From Spirochaetia bacterium (lineage in GTDB: Bacteria; Spirochaetota; Spirochaetia; Treponematales; Rectinemataceae), in the NCBI GenBank assembly GCA_029975555.1, contig JARKOY010000082.1, positions 1-40,014 on the forward strand: DNA of 40,014 nucleotides. Direction: 5' to 3'. Shown in pieces: positions 15,614-38,534 of the stretch. The notes beneath the pieces are model-generated. The model searched no databases. It was given only the letters and a program-made list of their open reading frames with translations, and was not told the DNA's origin. A program made the translations under genes and the position numbers. Every line of letters starts with the position of its first letter. Within the stretch, counting starts at the first letter, position 1.

Positions 15614-15652
15614 ATCCGCCTCCTCCATTCTCCTTCCTTATGGATAATGACC

Positions 15653-18147: not shown

Positions 18148-19167
18148 TCACCTTCTCCCCGAACAGCCGCACGACTCTCCAATAACGAGCTGGCTGGGGA
18201 TATACACTTCGCGCGGCGGCATCTTCTCTTTGGATTCGATGATGGACAGGAGCATTTCAGCGGCGGCTTGGCCGATCCGTGCCTCGACTTTTTCGAGGGT
18301 GGTGGGACACGGAGAGAGCGCATCGATGATGTCGGGATGCTCAAACGAGGCCACTGCGATGTCGCCGGGAATCGAGAGGCCTTTTTCCCGCAGCGCCTTG
18401 TAGCCGCCTAACAGGAGCTGGGTGTTTCCATAGATGATCGCAGTGGGCCGCGAGCTGCCTTTTTGGTCGAGAAGATCTTTCGTCGCTTCATACCCGCTAT
18501 GGATTTCCCAGTCGACGCTGCGGACAAGGCTCTCGTCGAAGGACAGCCGCGCCTCTTCGAGGGCATCGCGGAAACCGTTCAGTCGTTCGCGGGAGGATGA
18601 CTCTTCCAGCGGCCCCGTGATGAAGCCGATTTGCGTGTGGCCGTGGCCCAGAATATGCTCGGCCAGGCGACGGGAATTGCCTTCGTTGTCCTGAAGCACA
18701 TAGTTGCGTGCAGGACCGCTCAAACGGTTGTCGATCAGGACAAGGGGCGTGTCATCGAGATTGGGTATCTGGTCGATATATTCGCCCTGGTTGCCGATCG
18801 GCGCGAGGATGATACCGTCGATATTCTTCGCGAGGAGGGAACGGATCGATTCGATCTCGTTCTCCCTCGAATCCGAAGTGAAGCAAATGAGCGTCGAATA
18901 GCCCTTGGCGCGGAAGAACGCGTCGATTGCAATGCCGATTTCCCCAAAGAATCCGTTCGTGATGTTCGGAATGATGTAGCCGATCGTGTTGGTCTTTTGG
19001 TTTCTGAGGCTTTGGGCCGCCCAGTTTGGGGTAAAACCGCGTTTGCGGACCACTTCCATGATGAGCTCTTTTGTTTCGCGCTTTATGTCAGGATGGTTGT
19101 GTATGGCCCGCGAGACTGTCTTGATCGAAAAACCCGTTTCTCTTGCGATATCCTCAAGCCTTGTCAC
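18148..19167 (-). CDS. LacI family transcriptional regulator of the glycoside operon
   Basis: A 339-residue LacI/GalR regulator. Residues 1-24 form the DNA-binding helix-turn-helix (RLEDIARETGFSIKTVSRAIHNH). The effector-binding domain runs from about residue 60 to the end and finishes in an unusual CGCSGRR tail. The start is GTG 19167, with AGAGGAG nine bases upstream. The gene is divergent from the eight-gene sugar operon at 19485. Palindromes CGTTGTCGACAACG and CGTTGCCGACAACG lie on both sides of the intergenic region, so it probably represses the operon and itself. Confidence 0.92.
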   Translation of the reverse strand: MTRLEDIARETGFSIKTVSRAIHNHPDIKRETKELIMEVVRKRGFTPNWAAQSLRNQKTNTIGYIIPNITNGFFGEIGIAIDAFFRAKGYSTLICFTSDSRENEIESIRSLLAKNIDGIILAPIGNQGEYIDQIPNLDDTPLVLIDNRLSGPARNYVLQDNEGNSRRLAEHILGHGHTQIGFITGPLEESSSRERLNGFRDALEEARLSFDESLVRSVDWEIHSGYEATKDLLDQKGSSRPTAIIYGNTQLLLGGYKALREKGLSIPGDIAVASFEHPDIIDALSPCPTTLEKVEARIGQAAAEMLLSIIESKEKMPPREVYIPSQLVIGESCGCSGRR

Positions 19168-19222
19168 GGTTTGATTCTCCTCTATTCTATGATCAAATAA
19201 ACATACATTCCTTACCTCCTAG

Positions 19223-19236
19223 CGTTGTCGACAACG
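19223..19236. promoter_or_regulatory. LacI-type operator, regulator-proximal
   Basis: CGTTGTCGACAACG is a perfect 14-bp palindrome with the central CG typical of LacI-family sites. It is followed by TTGGCAAA, as is the second copy at 19428. It lies 56 bases upstream of the LacI gene start, and a TTGACA on the minus strand (19250-19245) lies next to it, suggesting autoregulation. Confidence 0.7.
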
Positions 19237-19392
19237 TTGGCAAATGTCAAGAGCCTCGATTGTCAACTGGCCTCACACGTTTTACACACCATTGTCGTGC
19301 ACCCCGGGGGCAGGTTCTGACATCCTCCTTTGGACGCACCGCAAAAAATGGCGTGTTAGCAGAGAAGATACGCACCGCCCCAAAAAAAGAAC

Positions 19393-19421
19393 TTGACAAA
19401 TCGAAATTTCGATACGATGAT
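19393..19421 (+). promoter_or_regulatory. Promoter of the glycoside-utilisation operon
   Basis: TTGACA (19393-19398) is a perfect -35. With a 17-base spacer the -10 is GATGAT (19416-19421), a four-of-six match. Start of transcription should fall near 19428, inside the second LacI-type operator. Confidence 0.6.
19400..19413. promoter_or_regulatory. Perfect palindrome ATCGAAATTTCGAT in the promoter spacer
   Basis: This 14-bp palindrome fills most of the interval between the -35 and -10 elements. Its sequence is unlike the CGTTGYCGACAACG operators, so it may bind a different regulator. A role is inferred only from position and symmetry. Confidence 0.45.
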
Positions 19422-19427
19422 AGTAAT

Positions 19428-19441
19428 CGTTGCCGACAACG
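19428..19441. promoter_or_regulatory. LacI-type operator at the operon transcription start
   Basis: CGTTGCCGACAACG differs by one base from the perfect palindrome at 19223 and shares the following TTGGCAAA. The two copies are 205 bp apart, suitable for repression by DNA looping. This copy overlaps the predicted transcription start. Confidence 0.7.
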
Positions 19442-19484
19442 TTGGCAAAACGTAGAATTCCAATCAGGAATCATGGAGGAGGCT

Positions 19485-20489
19485 ATGAAAAAGATCGGAG
19501 CATTGATGCTGGTCGTCTTTCTCCTTGCATCCACGGCAGGGTGGGCGCAGACAGCGCCGACACAGACAAAAGGCGGCAAAACTCTCATCGGCGTAAGCAT
19601 CATGGAGCTTACGGCGTATACCTGGTTTCTTGGCGTCATCGACGGCTGCAAACAGTGGGCTGCCGAGCACCCGGAGGCAAACTTTACTTTTCAGTTCGAA
19701 GATTCGCACTCTGATGTGCAGACCATGCTGAACAACATCGACAATCTTCTCGCAGCAGGGGCGAAGGGCATCATTCTGTTTCCCGCGGACGCATCTTCGG
19801 CGATCCCCACGATGAAGCAGAACGTGGCCAAGGGCATTCCCTTCGTCATTGGCGACTACAAACAGCAGCCTGCAAAACCCTCCGATGCGGTGTGGGCCAC
19901 CTTCGTCGGGCACGACATGAGGGCGCTGGGTGTGGTGGCAGGCAAGATCGCGGTCGATTACCTCAAGACGCTGAACAAACCGAACCCTGTGTGTCTCTTC
20001 GTTTCTCGCCCCACGTCGGGCCAAGTGTCGAAGGACAGGTTCGAAGGCTTCAGGGACACTGTGCTCGCCGCCTTCCCCAAGGCGAAAGTGATTGAGGAAG
20101 GCGATGTCGGCGCAGGCAGCAGGGCGTCCGCCCAAGACTTGGTCGAGAATGTGCTCAAAAGAGAGCCTGTCATCGATGTCGTCTCCGGCCACAATGACGC
20201 CGAAGTCGTGGGCGCTTACAACGCTGCGGTGTCCCAGAAGAGGACGAACATCAAATTCATCGGCATTGCGGGTGATAAGGACGTCCTCTCATTCATCACC
20301 AAGGGCAACCCCGCATGGATAGGTGAAGTTCTCCAGAATCCGGTGGTGCTCGGCTATCAGGCCACCGACGCCATGTACAGGGCGCTGAAAGGCGAAAAAC
20401 TGCCCGAGACCTACAATCTTCCTCAGCCAGAAGGAATTACGCCCGCCAACATAAAGAACTACGACTGGCAGAAGTGGTCTTGGCTGTGA
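19485..20489 (+). CDS. Sugar ABC transporter periplasmic substrate-binding protein
   Basis: A 334-residue exported binding protein of the ribose/galactose class. The signal peptide MKKIGALMLVVFLLASTAGWA ends near residue 21. Family patterns include VQTMLNNIDNLLAAGAKGIILFPAD and VSGHNDAEVVGAYNA. The start at 19485 has GGAGGAGG two to four bases upstream; the longer frame before it is not coding. It is the first gene of an operon of at least eight genes under the LacI-type operators, and it should deliver the ligand to the permease encoded at 22176. Ligand identity is unknown; the catabolic genes suggest a glycoside or amino-sugar derivative. Confidence 0.93.
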   Translation: MKKIGALMLVVFLLASTAGWAQTAPTQTKGGKTLIGVSIMELTAYTWFLGVIDGCKQWAAEHPEANFTFQFEDSHSDVQTMLNNIDNLLAAGAKGIILFPADASSAIPTMKQNVAKGIPFVIGDYKQQPAKPSDAVWATFVGHDMRALGVVAGKIAVDYLKTLNKPNPVCLFVSRPTSGQVSKDRFEGFRDTVLAAFPKAKVIEEGDVGAGSRASAQDLVENVLKREPVIDVVSGHNDAEVVGAYNAAVSQKRTNIKFIGIAGDKDVLSFITKGNPAWIGEVLQNPVVLGYQATDAMYRALKGEKLPETYNLPQPEGITPANIKNYDWQKWSWL

Positions 20490-20637: not shown

Positions 20638-22179
20638 ATGACAAGTCGTTTTCAGGCTGAGACGGGCATCCCCAATGGAGCGGTTCCATTGGTCGAACTC
20701 AGACACTGCACCATGGAATTTCCTGGCGTGAGGGCCCTGGACAATGTGAATTTTACGCTGATGCCCGGCGAGTGTCACGGTCTGGTTGGTGAAAATGGCG
20801 CCGGCAAATCGACGCTCTCCAAGTGCATCACCGGCGAAAACCATATGACCAAGGGAGAGTTGTTTATAGAGGGGAGAAAGGTACGGCTTTCCGGTTATTC
20901 GATCCATGAGTCCCAAAGGCTGGGTATCCAGGTCGTTCACCAGGAATTTCAGCTGATGAGTGAGATGACGGGCCTCGAAAACATCTTCATCGGTCACTAC
21001 GCCAGAAGAGGGGGCCTGATAGACTGGAAGGCGCTCACCAAGAAGGCACGGGAACTGATGGATTTTCTGCAGTGCGATGTCAACCTAAGCGTGCCGGTCC
21101 GCTATTTGCGTACTGCCGAAAAGCAGATCATTCAACTCGCCAAAGCAGTGCAGGCCGAGTCCAAGGTGCTCATCCTCGACGAGCTCACCGCAGTGCTCCA
21201 GGAAAAGGATATCCTGAATATCTTCAGAATCATCGGTATCCTCAAAGCGAAGGGCATGGGCATCGTCTACATTTCCCACAGGCTCAACGAGATCTTTGAA
21301 TGCTGCGATTCCTACACCGTGCTCTGCGACGGCCGTCACATCCACAGCGGGAATGTGCGCGACATCGACAAAAAAGAACTCATCAAGATGATCATCGGAC
21401 GCGAGCTGACGCAGGTCTATCCGCCCATGAACAGGCGTTTCGGGGATGTCATGCTCGAGGTGAAGGGCCTGACCGCACCGAAAGCTTTCAGGGACATCAA
21501 TTTCTACGTGAGGTCCGGCGAAGTGATCGGCCTTGCCGGCCTCGTTGGTGCGGGAAAAACCGAACTCGTGCAGGCGATCTTCGGCACGCATCCGCTGACG
21601 GGCGGCAAGATATTCATTAAAGGCAAAGAAGTGACAATAAAGAATCCTCGGCACGCAATCATGCTGGGCCTTGGATACGTCCCCGACGAGCGAAGAACCC
21701 TCGGACTGAATATGAAGTTCGACATCAAAGAAAACACGGTGCTCCCTTCGATGAGCAGGTTCAGAAAATTCAAGCTCTTCCAAGACCACAGGGCGGAGGC
21801 GCAGGCCGCCTATGATATCAACGAAAAACTTGAATTGAACTATTACTCCCTCTGGCAAAGCGTCGAAAAGTTGTCGGGCGGCAATCAGCAGAAGATCGTC
21901 ATCGCCAAGTGGATGCTCCGCAACTCCGAGATATTCCTCCTGGACGAACCGACAAGGGGCATCGATGTCGGCGCCAAGTTCGAAATCTACAAGCTCATCG
22001 ATGCGCTCACGCGGCAGGGGAAGAGCGTCATCATGGTCTCCCCCGAGCTCGAGGAGCTGATCGGGCTGTGCAACAGGATCTACATCCTCTACGAAGGTTC
22101 AATTATGGACATCGTCGAAGGAGAAAGAAAGACACAGGAAGTGATTATCAGCAGTCTGCTAGGAGTAAAGGAAAAATGA
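20638..22179 (+). CDS. Ribose-type sugar ABC transporter ATP-binding protein (double NBD)
   Basis: A 513-residue RbsA/MglA-type ATPase. The first domain has Walker [10 protein letters not shown], but a degenerate signature (LRTAEKQ) and Walker [10 protein letters not shown], where the usual DEPT is DELT. The second has GLVGAGKTE, keeping the lysine that is arginine in most relatives including the 13072 copy, then LSGGNQQK and [10 protein letters not shown]. Late in domain two MVSPELEEL replaces the usual SSELPEL. The start has AGGTGGAG/CAGGA upstream. It overlaps the permease start by four bases. It should energise uptake of the same ligand as the binding protein at 19485. Confidence 0.92.
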
Positions 22180-23201
22180 ACACCTTTGAAGAAAAAGCAA
22201 AACGCTACAGCGGGGGATGGAAGTCGTTCGTCAGAGACTGGATGATCCTCTTTCTCTTTGTGGCGCTGGTCGTGATTTTCAGCCTGACCTTGAGCACGTT
22301 CAGGACCACGGACAACATAATGAACATTCTGCGGCAGGCCGCGTTCACCGCCATCATTGCGATGGGAGAGTTCTTCGTCATCCTGATAGGTCAGATGGAT
22401 ATGTCGATCTCGTCGATTATTGGGATGGTATCCATTTTCTTCGCGGGGTTCGTGGTGAAGATGGGCATGCCCGTATGGATCGCCATTGCGCTCGTCGTGG
22501 CGATGGCTGCGATCATCGGCACGATTAACGGCATCCTGGTAGTCTACGGCAAGATGCCTTCATTCATCGCCACGCTCGTCACCATGAACATCATAAAGGG
22601 TTTTAACTACCTGTATTCCAAGGGGCTCCCCATTTCCGGTCTGCCGGATGGTTTCAACTTTTTTGGTTCGGGCTATGTCGGGGTCGTGCCTTTCCCAGTG
22701 ATTCTCATGTTCATCGTGGCGGCGATCCTGTTCATAATCACCGCGCACACGTCGGTAGGAAGGAGCTTCTATGCGGTCGGCGGCAACCTCGAGGCGAGCA
22801 AGCTGTCCGGCATCAATGTGGTCTTTGTCAGTATCCTCGCCTTCGTGTTTTCGGGAGTGCTGACCGCCATCGGTGCGCTGGGGCTGACGGCCAAGACGCT
22901 GGCAGGCAATGTGTCGCTGGGCGAGAACCTCCTCTTCGACGTCATGACCATCGTCGTGCTCGGAGGAACCTCATTGACCGGAGGGCGCGGACGCATTTTC
23001 GGAGTGGTCATCGGAGCCCTCTTTTTACAAGTGATAAGCAACGCCATGGTCCTCATGGGGATCAACACGTACTGGCAGTGGGTCGTCAAGGGCATCATTT
23101 TAATCATCGTCGTCCTCATCGACTCCAACACCAAAAGAGATATCGTAACGGCCGCAAGAAAACCAAAACCGGCACGCGCCGGGGAGAAAGGGGAGAAATG
23201 A
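22176..23201 (+). CDS. Ribose-type sugar ABC transporter permease
   Basis: A 341-residue RbsC-family permease with about nine hydrophobic helices. Family marks include [20 protein letters not shown] near residue 65 and [23 protein letters not shown] near 190. The start ATG 22176 overlaps the ATPase stop by four bases and has AAAGGA upstream; a long open extension in front lies inside the ATPase gene and is not coding. Its own stop overlaps the next start by four bases, tying transport and catabolic genes into one translationally coupled chain. Confidence 0.92.
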
Positions 23202-24376
23202 ACATGCACGGAGACATCTGTATACCCGACCATGAATACAAAGAACGCGTGGGGAGGGCCGCTGCACTCCTGAGGCGCGAGGGGCTCGATGCCATGATCG
23301 TCAACGGCAATGAGGCAGATTACGCCAATACGCGGTATTTTTCAGGATTCTGGCCGCTGTTCGAACGCTGCGGGGTAGCGATCAGCGCGGCAGGCGATGC
23401 GGCGCTCATGGTCGGACCAGAGAGCAGGGCCTTTGGAACCGACCGCAACAAGCTGGACAAGCTCTATGTTCTGAAAGACTACCGCGAAAGCGCCGATCCC
23501 GCGTATCCGGAACTCAAGGCAGATACCTTCAATGATGTCTTTAAAGGGCTGGGCATAACAGGACAAAAACTCAGAATAGGCGTCGCCAGCTACCTCGACA
23601 CCTCGGTCGTCGTCATGGACGGCATCAAGAAAGCCTTCCCCGAGGCAGAGATCGTGCGGGCCGACCATCTGATGGTAGAGCTGCGCTCCATAAAATCCAG
23701 AAATGAAATAGCCTGCCTTCGAGAGGGGTACCGCATCGCGGAGCTTGCGAGCCAGCAGGTGATCAGAGAAATCAAACCAGGCATGACCGAGCTCCAAATG
23801 GTCGGGGTGGCGCAGCGCGTCATCTACGAGCATGGCGCGGAATACGAAGGGCTGCCCATGTACGTATTCTCCGAGGCTTCCACCCGGCATGCCATCTCGA
23901 GGTCTTCCTACCGAAGGTTTGAAAGGGGCGACATCGTGCAACTCAACCTCTCCGCAAAGGTCGACGGCTATTCCGCCTCGATCGGCTACCCCGTCATCCT
24001 CGGCAAGCTGACGGGGAAGCGGCGCGAAATCGTCCTATTCGGCCTAGAAGCCCACAACTGGACGCAACGACAGCTGAAAGCAGGCGTCGTCGCTGCGGAT
24101 GTCGCCCGCGACTTCTACAAATTCTTCGTGGACAATGGATACAGAGATAACTTCGTGTACGGGCCGATGCACGGCACAGGCCTGATCGAAGTCGAGGCCC
24201 CTTGGGTCGAAACAAACTCCAATTACGCCTTCAAACCCAACATGACCTTTCAGATCGACACTTTCATCTCGACCGACACCTTCGGCGTCCGCTGGGAGAA
24301 AGGTGTGGCAATCACAGAAGATGGCGTGGATGTCCTGTCGCCCCCGATCGGCATACTCTACGAACTCGATTTCTAA
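23198..24376 (+). CDS. M24-fold (creatinase/aminopeptidase P-like) protein with altered metal site
   Basis: A 392-residue pita-bread-fold protein with a creatinase N-terminal domain (about 10-155) and a catalytic domain (about 160-390). In metal-dependent Xaa-Pro peptidases five residues (Asp, Asp, His, Glu, Glu) bind two metal ions. Here the equivalents read N250 (VQLN), S261 (GYSAS), H325 (GPMHGTG), D354 (FQID) and E367 (RWEKG), so at least two ligands are lost. H231 is retained. This resembles the metal-free creatinase branch more than a peptidase. It may hydrolyse an amide, urea or amidine-type bond in the imported compound. The start at 23198 overlaps the permease stop by four bases and has GGGGAG upstream. 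Confidence 0.82.
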
Positions 24377-24397: not shown

Positions 24398-25285
24398 ATG
24401 AACCCAATCTACGTACTGTTCGGCGTCGACATGGAGACCGACGTCGGCAGCTTTACGCCTTTCTACGAAGGAGTCAAACACGGTACACCCCTCCTGCTCG
24501 ACCTGTTTGCAAAAAAAGGCATAAGGGGGACCTTCTTCTTTACCGGAGAGTGCGCAAAAGAAAATCCAGGAGTGGCGAAGATGGTGGCGGAGAGCGGCAA
24601 TGAAGTCGGCTGCCACTCCCTCTACCACGAGACCGTCGGCGACGAGCTCTTTCCCATTCCCGGCGTAAAGCCCCTCCTGCCGCATGAGGTGAAACCGCGG
24701 CTTCAGCTGTGCAAGGAATGGGTTGAAAAGGCCGCGGGGGTGAAGACGACATCCTTCCGCTGCCCTCGGCTCTGGGGCTCGACGGCGGTGGTGAATGCGC
24801 TCGAAGTGCTCGGCTTTACTTGCGACGTCTCATACCCCATGTATTTCTACCGCGAACAGTTCGCGCCCTACCACCCCGATCGCACGGACTGGACGAAGAA
24901 GGGCGACAGTAGGGTGTTGGAGGTACCCAATTTTGCCGATATGAGCATGGAGAGCAAGGACCCTGGCCTCGAACGGGACAGGGACCAGTGGCCACTCTTC
25001 AGGATAATGGGAGCTGAGTACATCTTCGGAAAAAGCGTGTCCTTTATCGAATTCTGCAGGAAGAAAGCCATTCCATCCGTGCTCGCCTTCTACATCCACC
25101 CCTGGGAATTCTGGCCGATGAAAGCGAGCTACCATTTCGGCGAGGCGGCCGTCATCCCGGATGAGTTCATCACGAAGAACTGTGGGCCTATTGCGCTTCA
25201 GGAACTCGGCACGCTTGTGGACGATCTGGCCGAAATAGGAGCACAGTTCGTCACCGCGCGCGAACTTGTGACGATTTTTGCATAG
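24398..25285 (+). CDS. Polysaccharide deacetylase (NodB domain)
   Basis: A 295-residue carbohydrate esterase 4-type deacetylase. The metal-binding motif 1 reads GVDMETD (D11, D15 region), motif 2 is H73-x3-H77 in GCHSLYH, and motif 3 is FRCPRLWG near residue 120. The C-terminal FYIHPWEF supplies the late His. No signal peptide is visible, so it probably acts in the cytoplasm on an imported N- or O-acylated saccharide. Cytosolic relatives include ureidohydrolase-like and deacetylase enzymes. GGAGG lies six bases before the start, 21 bases after the M24 gene. Confidence 0.87.
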   Translation: MNPIYVLFGVDMETDVGSFTPFYEGVKHGTPLLLDLFAKKGIRGTFFFTGECAKENPGVAKMVAESGNEVGCHSLYHETVGDELFPIPGVKPLLPHEVKPRLQLCKEWVEKAAGVKTTSFRCPRLWGSTAVVNALEVLGFTCDVSYPMYFYREQFAPYHPDRTDWTKKGDSRVLEVPNFADMSMESKDPGLERDRDQWPLFRIMGAEYIFGKSVSFIEFCRKKAIPSVLAFYIHPWEFWPMKASYHFGEAAVIPDEFITKNCGPIALQELGTLVDDLAEIGAQFVTARELVTIFA

Positions 25286-25351: not shown

Positions 25352-27457
25352 ATGGTCAACCTTTTCCCCGAACCTAAAATTGTCCGGGAATACGAGGGCA
25401 CCACAAGGCCATTCCGGGGCCTCGCCATCGATTTCTGTGACCTGACGGAGGCAGAAAAAGCGGATTTGCTGGAGATCGCCCGCATGAGGTTCTGGAACCG
25501 CAAAGACCTGCGGATTTCGGCGAACAATCCTGAGCAAGGCTTCCTCAAGATCATTTGTATCCGGGGCCTCCCGGATATCGAGTCCGAACACCGCGACCTC
25601 TTTCTGAAGCAGGGCTATTTCCTCCACATCGAAGAAGACCGCATCCTCCTCAAATACCAAGAAAAACTGGGGTTCATCTACGCGATCACGACCATAAAGC
25701 AGCTCATGGCCCGAAAAGACGGCGCATTTATTCTTCCGCGCTGTGAGATTACCGACTGGCCTTCGGTCGAGCACCGCGCAGTGGCCCCGACCTTCTCTTG
25801 GTACGCAGGCTACGGCCGCCTCGGCTTCGATATGCAGCTCTGGGGCCGCGACGAGTGGATACGTTACCTCAACATCTGCATCGACAACAAAATAAACCAG
25901 ATGAACATGGTCATGTACGGATACTGGCCCTTCGAGTTCGAAGAATACCCGGAGACTGTCTTTAGGGACGTGCCCGTCAAAATCTGGAACAAAGAAAACC
26001 GGCGATGGCTCACCGTTCGCTACTCTCACCCCAACATCGAAGAGAACTTTTTGGCCGACTTCATCGCCCTCGCCCACAGGTTCGACTTCAAAATATTCGC
26101 GTACGTCGGCCTCAACTCCTACAACGGCGCGTACAGCATCAAACACCCCGAAAAGCGCATGATCAAACCCGCCGGCTCCAACTTCATGAACGACTTCGAC
26201 TCGCTCTGCCTCAGCGACGAGGACAACATCAGCTACATCCTCGCGAGCATGAGAAAGATCGCCCAGCTCGGCTTCGACGGCTTTACGCTCGAAGAGAGCG
26301 AGGAAGGTTTCTGGTTCTGCACCTGCGACAGGTGCACCGAGCGCTGGGGCGCAACCTCGGCTTCGCCCGTAGAAGCGAAACACAAGGCCAACATGTGGCT
26401 TCTGAAGCTGATCTACGAAGAGATTCGAAGAGTAAATCCTGAGGCCGTCATTGGCATCCGCGCGTTCAGACAGCCGCCGCTCGAAAAGGATCCGGCCTTC
26501 CTCGAGGAGTGCGTCAGAAGTATGCCGTTGGACATCAAACTCTTCTGGGCCCCTGCGCTCTACGTTCCACCCACGGAATTCAAAAAATGGATCGCCGCCT
26601 TCGGTAGGGACAGAATCTGGGGAAGAGATACCGAGGCCAACGCCATCACCTCGACCATGGGCCGGCTGTTCCGCATATTCGAGTCCAACATGATCCGCTA
26701 CGAAGACGAAGCCAACGCCCAGGTCATCGAGCGCGATATCGAGCAGCACATCACCAGTGCAGCCGAAGGCGTTAGCGGCATCAACGGCTTTATGTTCGAG
26801 TGGTACGGATACTTCATGTTCCAGTGGGCCCACGCCAACTACGGATGGGGTTCCACGATGGACAAGGAGACCTTCTTCCACCGAGCCTGCGAAGCCGCCT
26901 TCGGAAAAGAACTCGGAGAGAGGGTGCTCCTCGTGCTCAGAAGTATACTGACCATCCACGAAAGCCAAATGCCCTTTTACACGACACCCTTCCCCTTTCA
27001 AAAAAACAAGATCACGGAGGCGGACATTCCGCAGATCATGCAGGCAAAGCTGCGGCACCCCGGGCTTTTGGAAGAGATCCACGCCATCCAGCGCGAACTG
27101 GAAAAAGATCCGCAGCTCGCCGAGTACATTCCGCACTTTGCGCGCATCGAACACGCCGAGCGCAGAAACGCCATCATCTACGACATGGTGCTCGCCTCCC
27201 TGAGGTACGAGAAGGCGACATCCCACGAAGAGAAAGCGCGGCTGCTCGACGAGATACTCCAGTACAACGAGGCGGACTTCGACCTAGTGAAGGATATGTT
27301 CTTCGACGTTAACCCTGTAAGCGAATCGGGGGTGAAGAGCTGCATGTACCCCTACCACGAGATCAAGCGCCTGATCCACAACATCAGGCATCCCGAAGCT
27401 CCTGACAACGCAATCGTCTGTTCGGGCATCGAAGCCCTGGGGTGGCTGTGGCTATGA
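25352..27457 (+). CDS. Glycoside hydrolase, GH20/GH84-like architecture
   Basis: A 701-residue protein with no signal peptide. Residues about 1-135 resemble the alpha/beta domain preceding the barrel in GH20-type and related enzymes (GFIYAITTIKQLM at 107-119). A TIM barrel follows, starting CEITDWPSVEHRAV at 131. The strand segment LGFDGFTLEESEEGFWFCTC (307-325) carries candidate acids D309, E314 and E315; a CxCxxC cysteine cluster (C323, C325, C328) follows. The C-terminal 250 residues are helical. The canonical GH20 Asp-Glu dyad is not evident, so the exact family is uncertain. AAAGGAGG lies before the start. In this operon it probably cleaves the imported glycoside in the cytoplasm. Confidence 0.7.
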   Translation: MVNLFPEPKIVREYEGTTRPFRGLAIDFCDLTEAEKADLLEIARMRFWNRKDLRISANNPEQGFLKIICIRGLPDIESEHRDLFLKQGYFLHIEEDRILLKYQEKLGFIYAITTIKQLMARKDGAFILPRCEITDWPSVEHRAVAPTFSWYAGYGRLGFDMQLWGRDEWIRYLNICIDNKINQMNMVMYGYWPFEFEEYPETVFRDVPVKIWNKENRRWLTVRYSHPNIEENFLADFIALAHRFDFKIFAYVGLNSYNGAYSIKHPEKRMIKPAGSNFMNDFDSLCLSDEDNISYILASMRKIAQLGFDGFTLEESEEGFWFCTCDRCTERWGATSASPVEAKHKANMWLLKLIYEEIRRVNPEAVIGIRAFRQPPLEKDPAFLEECVRSMPLDIKLFWAPALYVPPTEFKKWIAAFGRDRIWGRDTEANAITSTMGRLFRIFESNMIRYEDEANAQVIERDIEQHITSAAEGVSGINGFMFEWYGYFMFQWAHANYGWGSTMDKETFFHRACEAAFGKELGERVLLVLRSILTIHESQMPFYTTPFPFQKNKITEADIPQIMQAKLRHPGLLEEIHAIQRELEKDPQLAEYIPHFARIEHAERRNAIIYDMVLASLRYEKATSHEEKARLLDEILQYNEADFDLVKDMFFDVNPVSESGVKSCMYPYHEIKRLIHNIRHPEAPDNAIVCSGIEALGWLWL

Positions 27458-28512
27458 GCGAGCACAGAGCCTTCAGGTGGCGCCTCAATCCATCCATGTT
27501 CACGGAAAAAGAACACACCCTCTTCGAATCCCCTTCTTTCTCCGCAAGCGCTTTTCGTTACAGCTCGGGAGTGGAAGCGCTCCGGATCCGCGCGGGCCGG
27601 GGAGAAATCGTCTGGCTCCCCTATTTGGGCCAGCAAGTCTGGGACTGGAGCGTCGACGGCGCGAGCCTTAAGTTCGAAGGCTTTGTGGAGGAGCCTGCGT
27701 ACGGGAAAAACTTCCTGCAGAACTACGGTGGATTTCTGATCCACTGCGGCGTGACCGCGATGGGCAACCCCTGCCCGCGCGACACGCACCCCCACCACGG
27801 AGAGCTGCCCGTCGCGCGCTTCGACGAAGCGTGGATCGAGATAGAAACAGGGCCCAGCGACGGCTGCGGCGAGGAACTCTCGCTCTGCGGACGGCTCCAC
27901 TGGAAGGTGCCCTTCGTGGCGGAGTACCACTGTGCGCCATCGCTGCGGATATCGGCTGACGGCCTGCGGCTGCGCGCCGAAGTGCGCCTGGAGAACCCGA
28001 CATCCCGCGACATGGAGTATATGTACCTCGCGCACATCAACTTCGCCTTTGCAGGGACAGAGAAGATACTGTCGACCGTCCCCTTCGACGCTGCCCACGT
28101 CAACATCAGGGAAGAGGTACTGCCCGGCATTGCCGCGAACCCGGCTCTCATCAAGCGCATCGACGGAGAGGCTGCCTACGAGCCCGAGCTGGTGGCAACC
28201 CTGGATCACAGAGAGAACCACAAGGGCACAGCGTCCCCTGCCGGCTCGGTCCTGGTGCACAAGGACGGCAGCGTGCGCTGGGTGCGCCAGGATAGTCCAG
28301 AGCTCGACCACCACGTGGTATGGATCACTCACGACCGCGACCGCGGCGCCTGCGGCTTCCACCTCCCCGCCACGGCCGGCCCGACGGGCTTTGAACGCGA
28401 AAAAGCCCTCGGCAACGTGAAGCGTCTCCCCGCAGGCGCCGATACCACCCTCCGCTACGAGTGCGGTTTCGCCGACAGGCTCGAGGACGCCCCCATTCCT
28501 GGCGTCTTTTGA
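27454..28512 (+). CDS. DUF4432 aldose 1-epimerase-like protein
   Basis: A 352-residue cytoplasmic protein with a galactose-mutarotase-like beta-sandwich. It matches DUF4432/aldose-epimerase-related proteins: GEIVWLPYLGQQVWDW near residue 50, NYGGFLIHCGVTAMG near 92, and LENPTSRDMEYMYLAHINFAFA near 185. It presumably interconverts anomers or binds the freed sugar. The start ATG 27454 overlaps the glycosidase stop by four bases; an in-frame upstream start is inside the glycosidase. The enzyme substrate is not determined. Confidence 0.8.
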   Translation: MSEHRAFRWRLNPSMFTEKEHTLFESPSFSASAFRYSSGVEALRIRAGRGEIVWLPYLGQQVWDWSVDGASLKFEGFVEEPAYGKNFLQNYGGFLIHCGVTAMGNPCPRDTHPHHGELPVARFDEAWIEIETGPSDGCGEELSLCGRLHWKVPFVAEYHCAPSLRISADGLRLRAEVRLENPTSRDMEYMYLAHINFAFAGTEKILSTVPFDAAHVNIREEVLPGIAANPALIKRIDGEAAYEPELVATLDHRENHKGTASPAGSVLVHKDGSVRWVRQDSPELDHHVVWITHDRDRGACGFHLPATAGPTGFEREKALGNVKRLPAGADTTLRYECGFADRLEDAPIPGVF

Positions 28513-28587
28513 ATGCTGCACGAAACGGTCCAACGGCGGCTCGCTGCCACGGGCCGCCTATCAAGGAGCTCTGAAAGGAAAAAGCAC

Positions 28588-28965
28588 ATGGACGATCAGC
28601 ACAACAACATGGGCAGAACCCAGTGGGTGTACCCCGACCTCGAACTGCCGCCCCCCGGCGAGTTCCCCTTGAAAGGGCACGAATCCCTCATCGTCCTGAA
28701 CATGAACGATGCAGACGCCGCCATCACCCTCACGCTCTACTTCACCGACAGAGAGCCCGTCGTGCTGCCCACACTGAAAGTCCCGGCCCGGCGCGTCCGC
28801 TGCCTCAGGCTGGACAACGAGGGCGACATCGGCATCCAGATTCCCCGTGAGACACAGTACGCCCTCCGCCTCAACGCGGACCTTCCCGTCGTCGCCCAGT
28901 ACGGCAGGCTCGACACGCGCCAGCAGAACATGGCCTTCTACACGGTGATGGGGTACTGTGGGTAA
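28588..28965 (+). CDS. Anabaena sensory rhodopsin transducer (ASRT) family protein
   Basis: A 125-residue soluble beta-sandwich protein of the ASRT family. The recognisable core is HESLIVLNMNDADAAITLTLYF, then VPARRVRCLRLDNEG and a final PVVAQYGRLDTRQQNMAFYT. The length equals that of the family. ASRT was named from its rhodopsin partner in Anabaena, but many relatives lie in sugar-utilisation operons, as here, and no rhodopsin gene is present. A sugar-binding or accessory role is inferred. The start is ATG 28588 with AAAGGA six bases upstream. The last 28 bases overlap the 3' end of the convergent AroM gene. Confidence 0.85.
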   Translation: MDDQHNNMGRTQWVYPDLELPPPGEFPLKGHESLIVLNMNDADAAITLTLYFTDREPVVLPTLKVPARRVRCLRLDNEGDIGIQIPRETQYALRLNADLPVVAQYGRLDTRQQNMAFYTVMGYCG

Positions 28966-29678
28966 GTTGACATACCACGCTGTTCCAGCAGCTCCGCGGC
29001 CACTCGCGCGAGGAGCGATCGCGGAAGGATGACCGGAACGCGCGCCACCGAGGCGAACACCGAGCGGATTTTTTCAGTGTACCCGATGCAGTCGAGGACG
29101 ATCATGTCGCACTGAAGCCGGGCGACGCTGCCGGCACACTCCAGGATCTCCGAGTCGCCCGAAGTATAAGGCGACAGGAATTCGAAGAGCAACGTGGCAC
29201 CTGTGCCTTCCCATTTCCGCGCGAGCATAGGGAACTGTTCTCTTGCCGGGGCGACGACGCAGAGCCGCGCCCCGCCACCTTTTCTCGAAGAGAGAACGGC
29301 TGCGACGACCGCTCCGACGATCGCGGAGGGGTAGAGCACTGGCACCGTCGACGCCACAGGCGGAAACGCTCCCGTACAGAAGAGCACGATGACATCCACG
29401 CCTCTGCGCTCCATGTCCGCCACGGCCTGCGGGAGCCTCTCCACCACGCGCTTCTCCGACAGCCTCACTTCCGTGCCGTCCTTAAGCCTCGTCACCAGGG
29501 TCTGATCCTCCGGGTCTCGAGGAGCGAGCGAGGCGATTTCCTCACGCGTCAGCCCGTCGAGCAGACCGTACTGTTCAATCTGCGGCGTCGATCCAAAGGC
29601 ATCGATGAACTCCGGCACCACATCGACGCGGGGCGACTGCCCGATGGTGACGATGCCGAGTCTCGGCGTGCCGATCAT
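28938..29678 (-). CDS. AroM family protein
   Basis: A 246-residue protein of the AroM family, named from an Escherichia coli gene near aroL; its reaction is not established. The family signature is the N-terminal LGIVTIGQSPRVDVVPEF. VDVIVLFCTGAFPP and DMIVLDCIGYTE resemble the cysteine-containing loops of Asp/Glu/hydantoin racemase-type folds. The start ATG 29678 overlaps the DUF1177 stop by four bases; the long open extension upstream lies inside the DUF1177 gene and is not coding. Pairing with a DUF1177 gene, peptide ABC genes and an M20 hydrolase points to uptake or catabolism of an amino-acid derivative. Confidence 0.85.
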   Translation of the reverse strand: MIGTPRLGIVTIGQSPRVDVVPEFIDAFGSTPQIEQYGLLDGLTREEIASLAPRDPEDQTLVTRLKDGTEVRLSEKRVVERLPQAVADMERRGVDVIVLFCTGAFPPVASTVPVLYPSAIVGAVVAAVLSSRKGGGARLCVVAPAREQFPMLARKWEGTGATLLFEFLSPYTSGDSEILECAGSVARLQCDMIVLDCIGYTEKIRSVFASVARVPVILPRSLLARVAAELLEQRGMSTYPQYPITV

Positions 29679-30610
29679 GGCGTCATTCCTTCTGTCTGGA
29701 GGTGCTTCATCGGCCCGTACAACTGCTGCAATCGTGCGAACTCCTGTTCCGAATAGAACGCGCAGGTGCCCGCCGTGAACGACTTCGCCACCTCGAGGCA
29801 GAATCGCGCCGTCTCCTCGATGTCGGTCTCCCTGCTTGCGCCAGTTCCGCAGCCGGGGACAGGCCTGACGGCGGTTATCGCCACGCCGATGACCGGCGCC
29901 TGGGTGGCAGTGCAGGGCTGAAGGATGCTGTTGAGGTGAAAAAGGCCATTCCCATACGGCGTGATGTCCTGCATCGTGATGGGCAAGACCACGGGCGAAT
30001 TGCCCGTGCTCCACTCGACGATATCGAGCACATCCTCGCTGACTCTGAGAATCCAGCCTTCCTTGACCGTGGGAGACACGGCAAAGCCGCGGTGGTTGAC
30101 GATTCTGTTTCCCTTTGTGGTGTCGATCGAGAGTATAGCGTCCATTGCAGGATCGACTTCGTATGCGTTCATGGCCTTCATGTCCACCGGAGAGCCCATA
30201 AAGGGCACCGGCACGTGCGGCTGCGTCGGTGCGTCGGGACAGATGTGCGTCGCGACGATCACGTCGCCGGCCAGGCGATCGCCCTTCCGCAGCATGTCCG
30301 CGAGCTTGGATGCGCAGGCCAGCGCCGCAACCGCCCCGTCCGCGTCCGACACAAGCCCTATCCTCTCTGGGCGTGCCCCGATGCCCCCAAGGCGGCCGAT
30401 GATGCCGAGCGTGGGGCTGCTGCCTCCCACACGCTTGCCGGAAAGCCCGGGGATGACTGCCTTTATAAAATCCGTTTTTCCCTTTTCGCCCCTTATCTCG
30501 TGGACCTCGACATGTTCGAGCCCCTTTTGTCTGAGAAAATCGGCCACTCGGCCGCCATCTACACCTGCATCGTCCAATAGCTCATAGACTTCGATTACTT
30601 GTTTCAGCAT
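29675..30610 (-). CDS. DUF1177 family protein
   Basis: A 311-residue protein of the DUF1177 family, function uncharacterised. Its sequence includes GIIGRLGGIGARPERIGLVSDADGAV near residue 70, VIVATHICPDAPTQPHVPVPFMGSP near 118 and ILSIDTTKGNRIVNHRGFAVSPT near 160. The patterned His, Asp and Glu residues could bind metal, but this is only inferred. The start has AGGAGG (30617-30622) six bases upstream. It is cotranslated with the AroM gene and is divergent from the response regulator gene across a 68-base gap. Confidence 0.85.
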   Translation of the reverse strand: MLKQVIEVYELLDDAGVDGGRVADFLRQKGLEHVEVHEIRGEKGKTDFIKAVIPGLSGKRVGGSSPTLGIIGRLGGIGARPERIGLVSDADGAVAALACASKLADMLRKGDRLAGDVIVATHICPDAPTQPHVPVPFMGSPVDMKAMNAYEVDPAMDAILSIDTTKGNRIVNHRGFAVSPTVKEGWILRVSEDVLDIVEWSTGNSPVVLPITMQDITPYGNGLFHLNSILQPCTATQAPVIGVAITAVRPVPGCGTGASRETDIEETARFCLEVAKSFTAGTCAFYSEQEFARLQQLYGPMKHLQTEGMTP

Positions 30611-30678
30611 GCAAAACCTCCTAATATATGAAACAATTTTGTTTTCTGATTTTGAAGTCGAAGGACTGGTTCATCTGG

Positions 30679-31371
30679 ATGAATATCCTTGTTGTGGAAG
30701 ACGAACATGCGCTCGCAAGGATGATTGAAGTCGAACTTCTCCTGCAAAACATGAATGTCGAAGTGTGCTACGATGGGAAATCTGCCCTTGTGAGCGCGTT
30801 TGAAAAGAAATTCGACCTCGTGATCCTCGACTGGATTCTGCCGGACATCGAGGGCATAGAGGTCTGCCGAATCTTGCGAAATAGGGGTCTGCAGACCCCC
30901 ATAATCATGATCACCGCGCGGCAAGAAGTGTCCTTCGAAGTCCGCGGGCTCACCGAAGGAGCGGACGATTTCATCGTAAAGCCCTTCGACATCGAGCAGC
31001 TCGTCGCGCGGATCCACGCGGTCATGCGGCGCGCGACCGCCAACAAAGGCGCTCTTTCCAGAATCGTCATCGACTCGCTGGTCATCGATCCCGCCACAAA
31101 GGCCGTGTACGACAACGGGCAGCGCGTCCACATCACGAAAAAGGAGTTCGAGATCCTCATGCTCCTTTTGGCCAACAGGGGCAAGGTCGTCACCAAGGAC
31201 GAAATCCACCGCTCGGTGTGGGGTGAGGATGTTCATATCGAGGAGGGGGCCATCGCCGTGCACATAAAAGCCATCCGTGACAAACTCAAGGGGCTCAAGA
31301 TCGAAAATGTACGGGGGTTTGGCTACATGGTAGAGAATTCTGACCATGAATTCCCCTTGGGGCCCACTTGA
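30679..31371 (+). CDS. OmpR-family response regulator
   Basis: A 230-residue two-component regulator. The receiver domain (1-120) has the acidic pocket ILVVEDE, the phospho-acceptor D51 (LVILDW), T/S in ITAR and K in VKPF. The C-terminal winged helix (about 130-225) includes ITKKEFEILMLLL and IRGFGYMV-like VRGFGYM. The start at 30679 is chosen from receiver homology; the frame is open from ATG 30628, and neither ATG has an ideally placed ribosome site. It is followed by its sensor kinase and then the peptide transporter operon, which it probably controls together with the divergent DUF1177/AroM genes. Confidence 0.9.
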   Translation: MNILVVEDEHALARMIEVELLLQNMNVEVCYDGKSALVSAFEKKFDLVILDWILPDIEGIEVCRILRNRGLQTPIIMITARQEVSFEVRGLTEGADDFIVKPFDIEQLVARIHAVMRRATANKGALSRIVIDSLVIDPATKAVYDNGQRVHITKKEFEILMLLLANRGKVVTKDEIHRSVWGEDVHIEEGAIAVHIKAIRDKLKGLKIENVRGFGYMVENSDHEFPLGPT

Positions 31372-31431
31372 CCTTGCCCTGTCGCCGAAAACCGAGGCCG
31401 CCCGCCGCGCCGTTCTAGGAATCAGACGGAT

Positions 31432-32673
31432 ATGAAAAAGAGGTTTCTTGCGATTCTTGCCGTGGTGATATGCATCATGAGTGCTGTCACCTTCGTCCTC
31501 TCGTACTTCGCCGCGAAGGGCAGCATCGAACAGCTCGTCCTCGAAAGGGCGAACACGCGCCTGTCCATCATCGTGCAGGGGTTCAGCAGCATAGCGAACG
31601 ACATCGACATCTATTCTTACATCGTGTTCCCACACGAGAGCATCTCCATCAAAAAAGGCGCGCTGTCCGTCTTTCAATACGGCACTTCCAGGCTGGACGA
31701 AAATTCGCCGCGGGTGAAGAAAATCGAAACCAGAAAAGGAGACTACGACTTTGTCCTCTACGTCGACCTGGACGCTGAAGTCTCGGGCTACATCGCCCCG
31801 TTCAGGCAGATCATCGCGATCACCGTGGTACTCTACGCGGTGATCTTCGCGGCCTCCGGCATAATATTCATCAACACCGTAGTGGGGCCAATTTCTTCGC
31901 TTGCGGCGAGCATGGCGAAGATTACGTCGCAGAACCTGCGCGAACGCATCCCTGTCCCGAAGAAAAAGGACGAGATCGGCCAACTGGTGCGGACCTTCAA
32001 CTCTATGCTCGACGAAATTGAGGGGACCTACACGCGGCTCAAGACGTTCGTGGACGACATGACCCACGACATCGTCACGCCGGTACAGATTCTGGAAGGG
32101 TACCGTCAGCTCATCGAGCGGCACGGAAAGAACGAAAAAATCATCGACGAGTACCTCGACGTCTCCAAGGTCCAGCTCTTTAGGCTCAAGGAAATGACGA
32201 GCTCTCTCAAGGCGGCATTCCTCGTCGAAAAGCGGCGCCGCGTCGAATTTGCGGATGCATCGGAAATCACATCGAGGAACGTCGCATACTACCGGGAACT
32301 CTACCCCACCATTCATTTCGACGCCTCCATAGAAAAAAGTGTCAGGCTCCCCATCGAGGCTATGGACCTCGAGCGCATCGAAAACATTCTCATCGACAAC
32401 GCGGTGAAGCACGGAGGCGAAGGTGGGCGCATCGAGATTCTCCTCAAGCGCAACGAGCTCGTCGTGAGGGACTTCGGCAGGGGCATTGCCGAACCGGCGC
32501 TCGCCTTCGAAAGGAGCAAGCGGGCCGAAGATTCGGAAAAGCACACGGAGGGCGCAGGTATAGGGCTCTCGATCGTCAAGAGGTTTTCTGAAGAGTACGG
32601 CTTCACGCTCGAGCTCGAAAGCCGCCCCGGAGCCGGCGCCAGTTTCATCCTACGATTCCCTGAAAGAACGTAA
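31432..32673 (+). CDS. Membrane sensor histidine kinase
   Basis: A 413-residue kinase. Transmembrane segments at about 4-26 and 126-149 enclose a 100-residue extracytoplasmic sensor. A HAMP domain follows (about 150-200). The phospho-acceptor is H212 in FVDDMTHDIVTPV, where the usual HE is HD. The ATPase domain has an N box (ENILIDNAVKHGG), a G1 box (VRDFGRGI) and a G2 box (GAGIGLSIVKRF). The start ATG 31432 lies 60 bases after the response regulator. The sensor domain is not recognised. Given the neighbours, it may sense an external peptide or modified amino acid. Confidence 0.9.
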   Translation: MKKRFLAILAVVICIMSAVTFVLSYFAAKGSIEQLVLERANTRLSIIVQGFSSIANDIDIYSYIVFPHESISIKKGALSVFQYGTSRLDENSPRVKKIETRKGDYDFVLYVDLDAEVSGYIAPFRQIIAITVVLYAVIFAASGIIFINTVVGPISSLAASMAKITSQNLRERIPVPKKKDEIGQLVRTFNSMLDEIEGTYTRLKTFVDDMTHDIVTPVQILEGYRQLIERHGKNEKIIDEYLDVSKVQLFRLKEMTSSLKAAFLVEKRRRVEFADASEITSRNVAYYRELYPTIHFDASIEKSVRLPIEAMDLERIENILIDNAVKHGGEGGRIEILLKRNELVVRDFGRGIAEPALAFERSKRAEDSEKHTEGAGIGLSIVKRFSEEYGFTLELESRPGAGASFILRFPERT

Positions 32674-32832: not shown

Positions 32833-34548
32833 ATGTTCCTGAAGAAATTCGGAACGGTGGCGCTCATGCTGTGCGCATCCATCGTTCCGCTGGTGGCGCA
32901 GACGACGCTGGTGGTCGGGCAGGCGACAGATCCGATCATTCTGGATCCGCCCATGTATTCCGACACGCCGACACACAACGTAAACCTTCTCATCTACGAT
33001 AGGCTCTATGACCTGTCCAGCGATGGGAAAGTGGTTCCGGGGTTGGCCGTCGATTTACCCAAAATCGAGGAAAACGGCACCAAATACACCATCAAGATAA
33101 AGAGCGGCGTCAAATTCCACAACGGCCAGCCGCTGACCATCGACGATGTGATCTATTCCTTCCAGCGGGGCGCATTCAACGACAAATCGCAGATGAAATC
33201 CATCTTCGCCATGATGTACGATGTAAAAAAGATCGACACCTACACCTTCCAGTTCAGGACAGGGTTTTTCGACAAATCGAAGGCTCCGGCCAATGTGCAG
33301 GACAGCGATCTCAAGTCCTTTGAAGACCGTGCCAAGTATTACAAGCCTGCGGCCTTCGGATCCCAGCTCAACCAGCTTACCTGGCTGGGCGCGTCCATCG
33401 TCAGCAAGGCCACGCTCGAAAAAGCCCAGCAGGATGGAACCCTTAAGGACTACGGCGTGACTTGGGCTGTCGGCTCCGGGCCTTTCAAGTTCGATTCGTG
33501 GAAACAGGGCGACAGCGTCACGCTCGTCAGAAACAAGGATTACCATGATTCGAGCATCCAGACGAATGTCGACAAGATCGTCTTCAAGACCATCCGCGAT
33601 CCTTCCGCGCTCAAGAGCGCGTTCCTGAACAAAGAGGTCGACCTCATCATGAACGTCGCCCCCCTCGACGCCAGGGAGATCGAGCAGGCCGGCGGGAAAA
33701 TTCTCCTCACCAACGGATATTTCGGCTACCACTATCTGGGCTTCAACATGAAATCTCCGAGGGTGGGCCAGGTCAACGCAGACGGAACGCCCGACATGGA
33801 TGGAGAGTACGACCTCTCTTCGCCTTCCGCCAAGCTGAGATTCGCCATTCTGTATTCGATCAATCCGTCAGACATCGTCAATTCGCCCGACATCATGGAC
33901 AAGCGCGGCAAGGTGACGCTCCAGTATGTCGAGAGCCTCCCGTTCGGGCACATCGACGACCCCAAGGGTACGCGGCTCGAGGAAGGCAACCTGAAGACCG
34001 GCTATTACAACCCGACAAAGGCCAAAGAGCTCTTCGCATCCTTGCCTGATTCGCTGAAGAAACCGGGACTATTGAAGTGCACGGCGCTGTCCGGAAGTGT
34101 GTTCGTCAAAGAAGCCCTCGTCATCAAAGATCAGGTGAAGCGGGTGCTCGGCGTCGATCTCATCTCCATCGAGCAGGTCGCGCTCTCGGAGCTCGCCACG
34201 CGCAGATCGAAGAGCGATCCCGACGTGTGGGACCTCATCGTCAACTGGACCCAGACCGACGATTCCTACTACATCTTCGTGGCCTTCGATGGATTCAACA
34301 CATCGCTGCTCCACGACACCAAATTCTACACGAAGGCTGCACAAGAGTGGATCGACAAGGGCAACTCGCTGCCGAACGGTCCGGAGCGGAACATCGCCTA
34401 CCAGAACGCCCAGAAAGAGGTCTTAAAAGCGCTGCCCCGTGTCCCGCTTGTGGCGATCATGGGCATCTCCGCGTCCCAGCAGAACATATCCGGGGTATTC
34501 CTTTCGCCCTCAGGTTCATTCATGCTCGACAACGTCGTCAAAAAATAA
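32833..34548 (+). CDS. Peptide ABC transporter substrate-binding protein (Dpp/Opp family)
   Basis: A 571-residue SBP_bac_5 family binding protein, exported by a signal peptide ending near AQ at 22-23 (MFLKKFGTVALMLCASIVPLVA). No lipobox cysteine is present at the cleavage point. Family patterns include ITIKSGVKFHNGQPLTIDDVIYSF-like residues 85-107 and WAVGSGPFKFDSWKQGDSV near 212-230. AAAGGAGG lies nine bases before the start. It is the first gene of a complete transporter operon (binding protein, two permeases, two ATPases) ending with an M20 hydrolase. The 159-base gap upstream contains no clear promoter I can defend. Confidence 0.93.
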   Translation: MFLKKFGTVALMLCASIVPLVAQTTLVVGQATDPIILDPPMYSDTPTHNVNLLIYDRLYDLSSDGKVVPGLAVDLPKIEENGTKYTIKIKSGVKFHNGQPLTIDDVIYSFQRGAFNDKSQMKSIFAMMYDVKKIDTYTFQFRTGFFDKSKAPANVQDSDLKSFEDRAKYYKPAAFGSQLNQLTWLGASIVSKATLEKAQQDGTLKDYGVTWAVGSGPFKFDSWKQGDSVTLVRNKDYHDSSIQTNVDKIVFKTIRDPSALKSAFLNKEVDLIMNVAPLDAREIEQAGGKILLTNGYFGYHYLGFNMKSPRVGQVNADGTPDMDGEYDLSSPSAKLRFAILYSINPSDIVNSPDIMDKRGKVTLQYVESLPFGHIDDPKGTRLEEGNLKTGYYNPTKAKELFASLPDSLKKPGLLKCTALSGSVFVKEALVIKDQVKRVLGVDLISIEQVALSELATRRSKSDPDVWDLIVNWTQTDDSYYIFVAFDGFNTSLLHDTKFYTKAAQEWIDKGNSLPNGPERNIAYQNAQKEVLKALPRVPLVAIMGISASQQNISGVFLSPSGSFMLDNVVKK

Positions 34549-34550
34549 TT

Positions 34551-34580
34551 GTATGCGGTGGGCAGGCGCCCGCCGCGTAC
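34551..34580 (+). terminator. Intercistronic hairpin after the peptide-binding-protein gene
   Basis: GTATGCGGTGGGC pairs with GCCCGCCGCGTAC through 13 positions, two of them G-U, around an AGGC loop. No T-run follows and the permease gene starts 35 bases later. It should act as an mRNA 3' stabiliser or attenuator. Confidence 0.65.
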
Positions 34581-34614
34581 AGTCTGTCTCTCGCGCGCTT
34601 TGAGAGGATTCGAC

Positions 34615-35604: not shown

Positions 35605-35605
35605 C

Positions 35606-36550: not shown

Positions 36551-36559
36551 GGTGAGATC

Positions 36560-37555: not shown

Positions 37556-38519
37556 ACTATCAGGCGCCGAGCCGATATTACAAGTCAAGAACCTGAAGAA
37601 ATATTTCCACACTCCACGAGGGGAGCTTCATGCCGTCGACGATGTGAGCTTCGAGATTCAAGAAGGAAGGACCCTCGGTGTCGTCGGTGAATCGGGGTGC
37701 GGCAAGACGACCACCGGAAGAGCTATTCTCCGGCTGATAGAGCCCACGAGCGGCTCCATTCTCTTCGACGGAATGGACATTACCTCCATGGACAAACACA
37801 GGCTCAGGATGATCCGCGAAAAGATGCAGATCATCTTCCAGGACCCCTACTCCTCCCTCGACCCGAGGATGACGGTCTCCGGCATCATCGCCGAGCCCCT
37901 CATCATCCACCGACGAGTCTCCGGCAAGAAAGAGCTTGCCAGGCGCGTCCAGAAGCTTATGGAGATGGTCGAACTCGAAGATCGACTTTCCTCCGCCTAT
38001 CCCCACGAGCTCGACGGTGGAAGGCGCCAGCGCATCGGCATCGCCCGCGCCCTCGCGTTGGAGCCCAAGTTCATCGTGTGCGACGAGCCTGTCTCCTCAC
38101 TCGACGTCTCCGTCCAGGCGCAGATTCTCAACCTGATGCAGGACCTTCAAGATCAGCTGGGCCTCACCTACATGTTCGTCACCCACGACATGGCCGTGGT
38201 CAAGCACATCTCCGACGAAATCGCCGTCATGTACCTCGGCCAGATCATCGAAAAATCGCCGGCAAAAGAACTCTTCAGACACCAGTACCACCCCTACAGC
38301 CGCGCGCTCATCTCGGCGATTCCCAAAATCGAAGCGGCGGGCGCAGATACCGCAACGATCCTGAAGGGGGAAATCGGCTCCCCGATCGAACCAAAGCCTG
38401 GCTGCAGGTTTGCGCCTCGCTGCGACTACTGCATAGGAAAATGCCTCAGCGAAAACCCACCTCTCAAAGCCGTAGGACCTGAAAGGTACGCGGCCTGCTG
38501 GAGAGCAGAGGAAATGTAG
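37548..38519 (+). CDS. Peptide ABC transporter ATP-binding protein, DppF type
   Basis: A 323-residue ATPase. Walker A is GESGCGKTT, the Q loop is [13 protein letters not shown] and Walker B is [12 protein letters not shown]. The signature reads ELDGGRRQR where relatives have ELSGGQRQR, losing the conserved serine. The switch THDMAVV and the C-terminal cysteine pattern [10 protein letters not shown] are normal. The start ATG 37548 has GAGGG six bases upstream; a TTG six bases earlier in frame is less likely. It forms the ATPase pair with the DppD-type protein. Confidence 0.92.
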
Positions 38520-38534
38520 AAAAGGAGAAAAGAT

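Follow-up and report, generated by a model that had tools for sequence, protein, structure and literature searches.

The gene at positions 25352..27457 (+ strand) of the window, the 40,014-nucleotide stretch of a Spirochaetia bacterium contig analyzed here, encodes a glycosidase-like protein of 701 amino acids that is one of a conserved family inside a conserved operon. Our tentative reading is that of a cytosolic, exo-acting glycosidase in a separate family that descends from GH20/GH84-type enzymes, which would catabolize a small amide-containing glycoside with E317 as acid/base and E428 as candidate nucleophile. This reading starts from the computed fold, family, invariant residues, operon and exclusivity of partner hydrolases, from which we infer the catalytic roles, the metal, the order of steps and the substrate.

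The reading frame opens with ATG and is laid out as a GH20b-type domain, a (beta/alpha)8 barrel (residues ~140-500) and a helical C-terminal domain. GH20 domain 2 (PF02838) was matched at residues 3-136 (25358..25759, +) with 31.5 bits (cut-off, 26.1), and at E <= 0.1 in all 27 family rows. The initial annotation had suggested a comparison with family models, and in Pfam no catalytic-domain model scored above cut-off in the window protein, its only other match being GHL6 (16.9 bits; cut-off, 35). The GH20 catalytic model PF00728 gave no match in the window protein and a single one among the 27 family rows (E 0.057, 13.2 bits; cut-off, 22.3). Likewise, the GH84 catalytic model PF07555 was absent from the window protein and from 27/27 family rows at E <= 0.1. 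DUF4838 (PF16126), which we take to be the catalytic part of GH163, was not listed for the window protein and was weakly matched in 10/27 family rows (E <= 0.1; best E 2.4e-5), with bit scores in three rows of 19.6-20.1, under the cut-off of 26.6. Solved glycosidases found by sequence align to the N-terminal domain of the window protein, the best being GH84 BT_4395 (E 5.7e-6). Visual inspection revealed no signal peptide in the window protein (N terminus, MVNLFPEPKIVREYEG), and a sugar importer adjoins the gene, so the enzyme is probably cytosolic and would act, as had been proposed, on an imported substrate. The source genome holds a single copy of the gene.

Structure prediction, which had also been recommended, gave an AlphaFold2 model of the window protein (27-row alignment; pLDDT 88.8, pTM 0.91) whose fold is GH20/GH84-like, with a GH20 barrel. 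GH20 and GH84 enzymes stood at the top of the Foldseek list (Bt4394, E 1.2e-21), and the full-length VIA list was likewise mostly GH20/GH84 (Z 19.1-21.4), with 2epo as the best match (Z 21.4, rmsd 4.9 over 527 residues). A model of residues 1-315 superposed on the Vibrio harveyi GH20 structure 6ezr with Z 19.3 and rmsd 3.0 over 272 residues. The domain order claimed from the sequence, GH20/GH84-like, is thus borne out by PF02838 above cut-off and by the Foldseek and VIA matches.

A pattern scan of one genome per species (84,980 species) returned 28 loci. Two of these, a 58-residue match (L032) and a partial one (L027), stayed outside the alignment, and the others plus the window protein form the 27 full-length rows, which are 44-86% identical to the window protein. 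The family spans four phyla (Spirochaetota, Bacillota, Actinomycetota and Pseudomonadota), and close orthologues are scarce nearby, in 4/194 genomes of the order and 2/392 of the phylum (own genome counted). In the class of Faecalicatena (391 genomes), 26 profile matches were found, of which 3 were full length and 23 partial, all of the latter within residues 1-297. No relatives were found among the viral contigs and plasmids searched.

Residues 309-321 of the window protein read DGFTLEESEEGFW, with strand 4 of the barrel at residues 310-314 by DSSP and the run E314-E315-S316-E317-E318 (26291..26305, +) at its tip. All five residues of this run, together with W321, C323, C325 and C328, are invariant in 27/27 rows; as these rows reach down to 44% identity, the motif is not due to chance. 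The open reading frame, the unusual motif and the CTCDRC that follows it, which had first drawn attention to the gene, are therefore confirmed. At the end of strand 7 (residues 425-427 in the AlphaFold2 model) lies D426-T-E428 (26627..26635, +), of which D426 and E428 are invariant. E483 is also invariant (27/27), and invariant carboxylates thus occur at strands 4, 7 and 8.

The assignment of a catalytic pair within this motif depends on the alignment register. HHalign set E314-E315 on the GH20 D-E, GH84 D-D and DUF4838 D-D pairs, a register that requires a gap of 2-5 residues in or beside strand 4. With the barrel only, its E values were weak for GH20 (0.28 and 0.18) and GH84 (0.0069 and 0.18) and better for DUF4838 (3.1e-5 and 0.0009). 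MAFFT and HHalign alignments to the bridge rows L076 and L077 placed long gaps around the motif and were left out of the register call. As sequence alone left the register undecided, the model of residues 1-315 (pLDDT 88.4; last block, 71) was folded and its last residue was read on solved chains. Superposition yields alignment ends only, and the places of S316 and E317, outside this model, are extrapolated by one and two residues. Five proteins with known pair numbering, among the 50 superpositions listed, gave the structural register. E315 fell on residue 436 of the V. harveyi GlcNAcase (D437A in the structure title), whose pair is D437-E438 according to the available sections of PMC4752478. 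It also fell on residue 334 of Bt4394 (D335N in the title), residue 312 of SpHex (D313A/N in titles), residue 551 of the Bifidobacterium bifidum enzyme (E553Q in the title) and residue 296 of the GH84 enzyme CpOGA (D298N in titles). Its positions on HexB (353) and OfHex1 (366) agree with what we take to be their pairs. By this model, S316-E317 would occupy the catalytic-pair places in all five superposed GH20/GH84 proteins.

Ungapped scoring of the strand pointed to S316 for the bridge GH20 rows L076 and L077, and also for five rows of DUF4838 and a single one of GH84. For two further GH20 sets, of 8 and 5 rows, it did not give S316, and both favored E314 when the pair was scored as well; in the GH20 set of 19 rows, 8 were scored ungapped and the pair motif was readable in 11, some of the remaining 8 possibly being wrong open reading frames. 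The second pair residue lies 31 residues after the loop cysteine if it is E317, compared with 32 in the GH20 row L040 and in the relative L084, 33 in the DUF4838 row L033 and 36 in the bridge protein L076. This spacing leans to E317 and is not decisive. The bridge protein L076 reaches the GH20 model with 57.1 bits (cut-off, 22.3) and has both HVGLDE and CxCxxC. L084 reads WLSEEESKCYCDKC, with Ser-Glu in place of the pair, and no catalytic-domain Pfam family was found in it at E <= 0.1; it is possibly another Ser-Glu branch. Its N terminus is GH20b-like (24.3 bits; cut-off, 26.1), and L085 is similar in length. Under either register, S316-E317 or E314-E315, the orienting Asp is missing in 27/27 rows. 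The claim that the pair matches no known family holds in that it is neither the D-E of GH20 nor the D-D of GH84 or of DUF4838 (4/5 rows).

These registers bear directly on the mechanism. A substrate-assisted, GH20-type beta-N-acetylhexosaminidase with a Glu-Glu pair, in which E314 would orient the acetamido group and E315 would act as acid/base, agrees with the HHalign register, with the preference of two GH20 sets for E314 when the pair is scored and with the best fold matches being GH20. However, it depends on the 2-5-residue gap noted above, and both the structural register and the nearest GH20 relative favor S316-E317, so we regard a Glu-Glu pair as rather unlikely. If the pair is S316-E317, substrate assistance might still persist, with Ser316 or a neighboring Glu (E314, E315 or E318) replacing the Asp. 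The structural register and ungapped scoring suit this proposal as they do our main reading, the strand tip carries a group of several invariant acids, and GH85 uses Asn at the place of the orienting Asp. It is nevertheless doubtful, as Ser lacks the negative charge of the GH20 Asp and the invariance of the acid E428 at strand 7 would be left without an explanation. In GH20, this Asp supports the substrate's own acetamido group, and the available sections of PMC4752478 describe the D437A mutant as almost inactive. The absence of the canonical Asp, seen alongside partners such as an ASRT protein and the M24 protein, whose metal ligands are altered, could also indicate a degenerate GH20-like protein that binds, isomerizes or eliminates a sugar derivative. 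We consider such a non-hydrolase improbable, because the invariant carboxylates at strands 4, 7 and 8 suggest active chemistry.

In the double-displacement glycosidase that we prefer, a ribose-type ABC importer would bring the small glycoside into the cell, where E317 at the tip of strand 4 would serve as general acid/base. Ser316 would take the position of the GH20 Asp holding the substrate's 2-acetamido group, and the acetamido-assisted mechanism would thereby be altered or lost. For an ordinary double displacement, the most suitable candidate nucleophile within the protein is E428 at the strand 7 tip; its position after strand 7 is, we presume, the site of the clan GH-A nucleophile. Double displacement by E317 and E428 seems the most likely route, and an unusual substrate-assisted route may operate instead. 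The amide part of the same substrate would be processed, before or after glycoside cleavage, by a creatinase-like M24 protein and a partner amide hydrolase, which is NodB-type in the window and MlrC or creatininase in other loci. Processing before cleavage would explain why an acetamido-binding Asp is not needed. Against this reading, MlrC and creatininase are not known as sugar deacylases.

The initial annotation had also pointed to the cysteine cluster as a possible metal site. The motif C323-x-C325-x2-C328 (CTCDRC; 26318..26335, +) and the loop residue Cys286 (26207..26209, +), which might complete a Cys4 site as its fourth ligand, are each invariant in 27/27 rows, and judged from sequence the four cysteines probably hold a putative structural metal. 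A loop Cys with CPxC or CxCxxC also occurs in 11/19 GH20 rows (those with a readable pair motif; the other 8 lack one), in both bridge rows and in 5/5 DUF4838 rows, and CxCxxC is absent in the single GH84 row read (L078). Since the cluster recurs in GH20 and DUF4838 relatives, it appears to be an inherited structural feature, and any metal site there would likewise be inherited. The cluster is thus present as described and may bind a metal, but it is not special to this protein.

The genes around the glycosidase form a sugar transport and processing operon. A divergent LacI-family regulator (18148..19167, -) is followed on the + strand by genes for a Peripla_BP_4 sugar-binding protein (19143..20489), a xylose/ribose-type sugar ABC ATPase (20638..22179), a ribose-type permease (21909..23201), an M24 pita-bread protein of the creatinase/prolidase fold (23078..24376) and a NodB-type polysaccharide deacetylase homologue (24398..25285). 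Downstream lie a DUF4432 protein (27442..28512, +), presumably aldose-epimerase-like, and an ASRT homologue (28513..28965, +), a predicted intracellular sugar sensor. Terminator-like sites were as frequent as in shuffled sequence (11 versus 11.0) and promoter-like sites somewhat more frequent (7 versus 3.4, sd 2.1), neither marking a clear unit boundary. A second LacI and ribose-type sugar ABC cluster lies at 11008-15628 (-), with LacI at 11008-12015 and the ATPase at 13072-14616 by Pfam; the genes at 12092-13075 and 14669-15628 (-) group with permeases and binding proteins from the glycosidase loci. On the other side, an AroM/Asp-Glu-hydantoin racemase-type protein (28938-30014, -) and an oligopeptide-type ABC transporter with SBP_bac_5 and an M20 peptidase (32833-39791, +) form a possible peptide or amide scavenging cluster, near which a two-component system is found (30628-32673).

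The neighborhood was compared by tblastn across 28 loci (the window plus 27), which were gathered by the glycosidase, so that all counts are conditional on that gene. Near the glycosidase, the ATPase was detected in 25 loci, the permease and the binding protein in 24 each, the M24 protein in 23, the LacI-type regulator in 22 and ASRT in 20; the NodB-type gene was found in 14, MlrC and DUF4432 in 8 each, rhaM in 7 and creatininase in 3. These counts are lenient, as the ATPase match of L019 (25% identical) is a phosphonate-type transporter and the M24 match of L017 is partial and 9.5 kb away. Genes shared the strand of the glycosidase in 25/25 (ATPase), 21/23 (M24), 19/20 (ASRT) and 16/22 (LacI) cases. 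Two loci run counter to our main reading: L017 and L019 are without a ribose-type importer and amide hydrolases nearby, although sugar kinases and an isomerase-like gene are found close to L017.

Exactly one of the NodB-type, MlrC and creatininase genes was present in 25/28 loci and two in none; the loci without any of the three were L017, L019 and L027, the last on a 4.2-kb contig. This exclusivity suggests that three unrelated amide hydrolases fill one step. Treating "none" as a further state, we counted six changes of hydrolase type on the glycosidase tree of 27 rows, compared with 11.5 in shuffles. L016 and L023 are sister copies in the same Anaerobacterium chartisolvens genome; of their two paralogous clusters, one carries a NodB-type deacetylase and the other MlrC. 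The NodB-type protein of the window matches PF01522 with 58.3 bits and keeps the candidate Asp/His ligands, and the conserved residues are kept in 14/14 loci that have this gene.

The M24 protein has changes at three of the five metal-ligand positions of aminopeptidase P. Compared with 2zsg, two metal Asp residues are replaced by Asn and Ser and one Glu by Asp, and the His and the last Glu are kept; both Asp positions are also non-Asp in the other rows listed that reach them. The ligand roles (Asp-Asp-His-Glu-Glu) are those that we assign from the aminopeptidase P type. The His of the STRHAIS motif, which we take to be the equivalent of the catalytic creatinase His, is kept in the listed NodB-type rows and in L008 and is Asn in L022 and the listed MlrC-type rows. 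We regard the M24 protein as more likely a creatinase-like C-N hydrolase than a metallopeptidase.

A more far-reaching version of the pathway can be put forward, and we think it unlikely as a whole. A GH20-derived family would have changed its mechanism by dropping the Asp and gaining its own strand 7 nucleophile, with a partner amidase removing the N-acyl group first. The enzyme would then be central to an undescribed pathway acting on a small glycoside that is N-acylated or bears a lactam; one step would be carried out by any of three unrelated hydrolases, and the following C-N bond would be cleaved by a creatinase-fold protein that lacks the usual metal site. A fucose or rhamnose substrate, suggested by rhaM (7/28 loci) and by the SDR, Amidohydro_2 and FAA_hydrolase genes of L021, was rejected because these genes are too patchy. 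At L021:4951-17362, beside the glycosidase, two SDRs, Amidohydro_2, FAA_hydrolase and an aminotransferase are encoded, a set that to us resembles oxidative deoxysugar catabolism; the link of rhaM and the L021 genes to a fucose/rhamnose pathway is likewise our assumption.

GH20 enzymes are a textbook case of substrate-assisted catalysis, and a natural, widely inherited branch with Ser (or Glu) for Asp would test the loss or replacement of such a mechanism. The conserved operon further points to a sugar catabolic pathway, present in several phyla, without prior assignment. It also gives ASRT sensors a defined genetic context. In the available sections of de Souza et al. 2009 (PMC2739507), standalone ASRT proteins are proposed as intracellular sugar sensors and monosaccharide ABC transporter neighbors are noted, a role that by analogy fits the operon. 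The neighborhoods described there resemble ours in the standalone ASRT gene adjoining such a transporter, and those sections make no mention of this glycosidase, the M24 protein or the NodB/MlrC/creatininase alternatives. The literature searched, in which subscription journals are thinly covered and which is thus weak evidence of absence, held no matching operon and no Ser-containing GH20 pair.

Among known glycosidases, DUF4838 proteins share the CxCxxC cluster and loop Cys (5/5 rows) but have a D-D pair in 4/5 rows and D-K in one, whereas our family has no Asp there. GH84 O-GlcNAcases (BT_4395, CpOGA NagJ) are similar in the sequence of the N-terminal domain, overall layout and fold. In contrast to them, PF07555 is unmatched, the D-D pair is not kept (Glu-Glu by HHalign) and the CxCxxC cluster, lacking in the GH84 row, is present. 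The GH20 beta-N-acetylhexosaminidases (Bt4394, V. harveyi GlcNAcase) share the GH20b domain and the barrel and are the best fold matches. Unlike them, the family does not reach PF00728 above cut-off, shows Ser (or Glu) at the Asp position of the D-E pair in 27/27 rows, and carries a helical C-terminal domain and an additional invariant Asp and Glu at strand 7.
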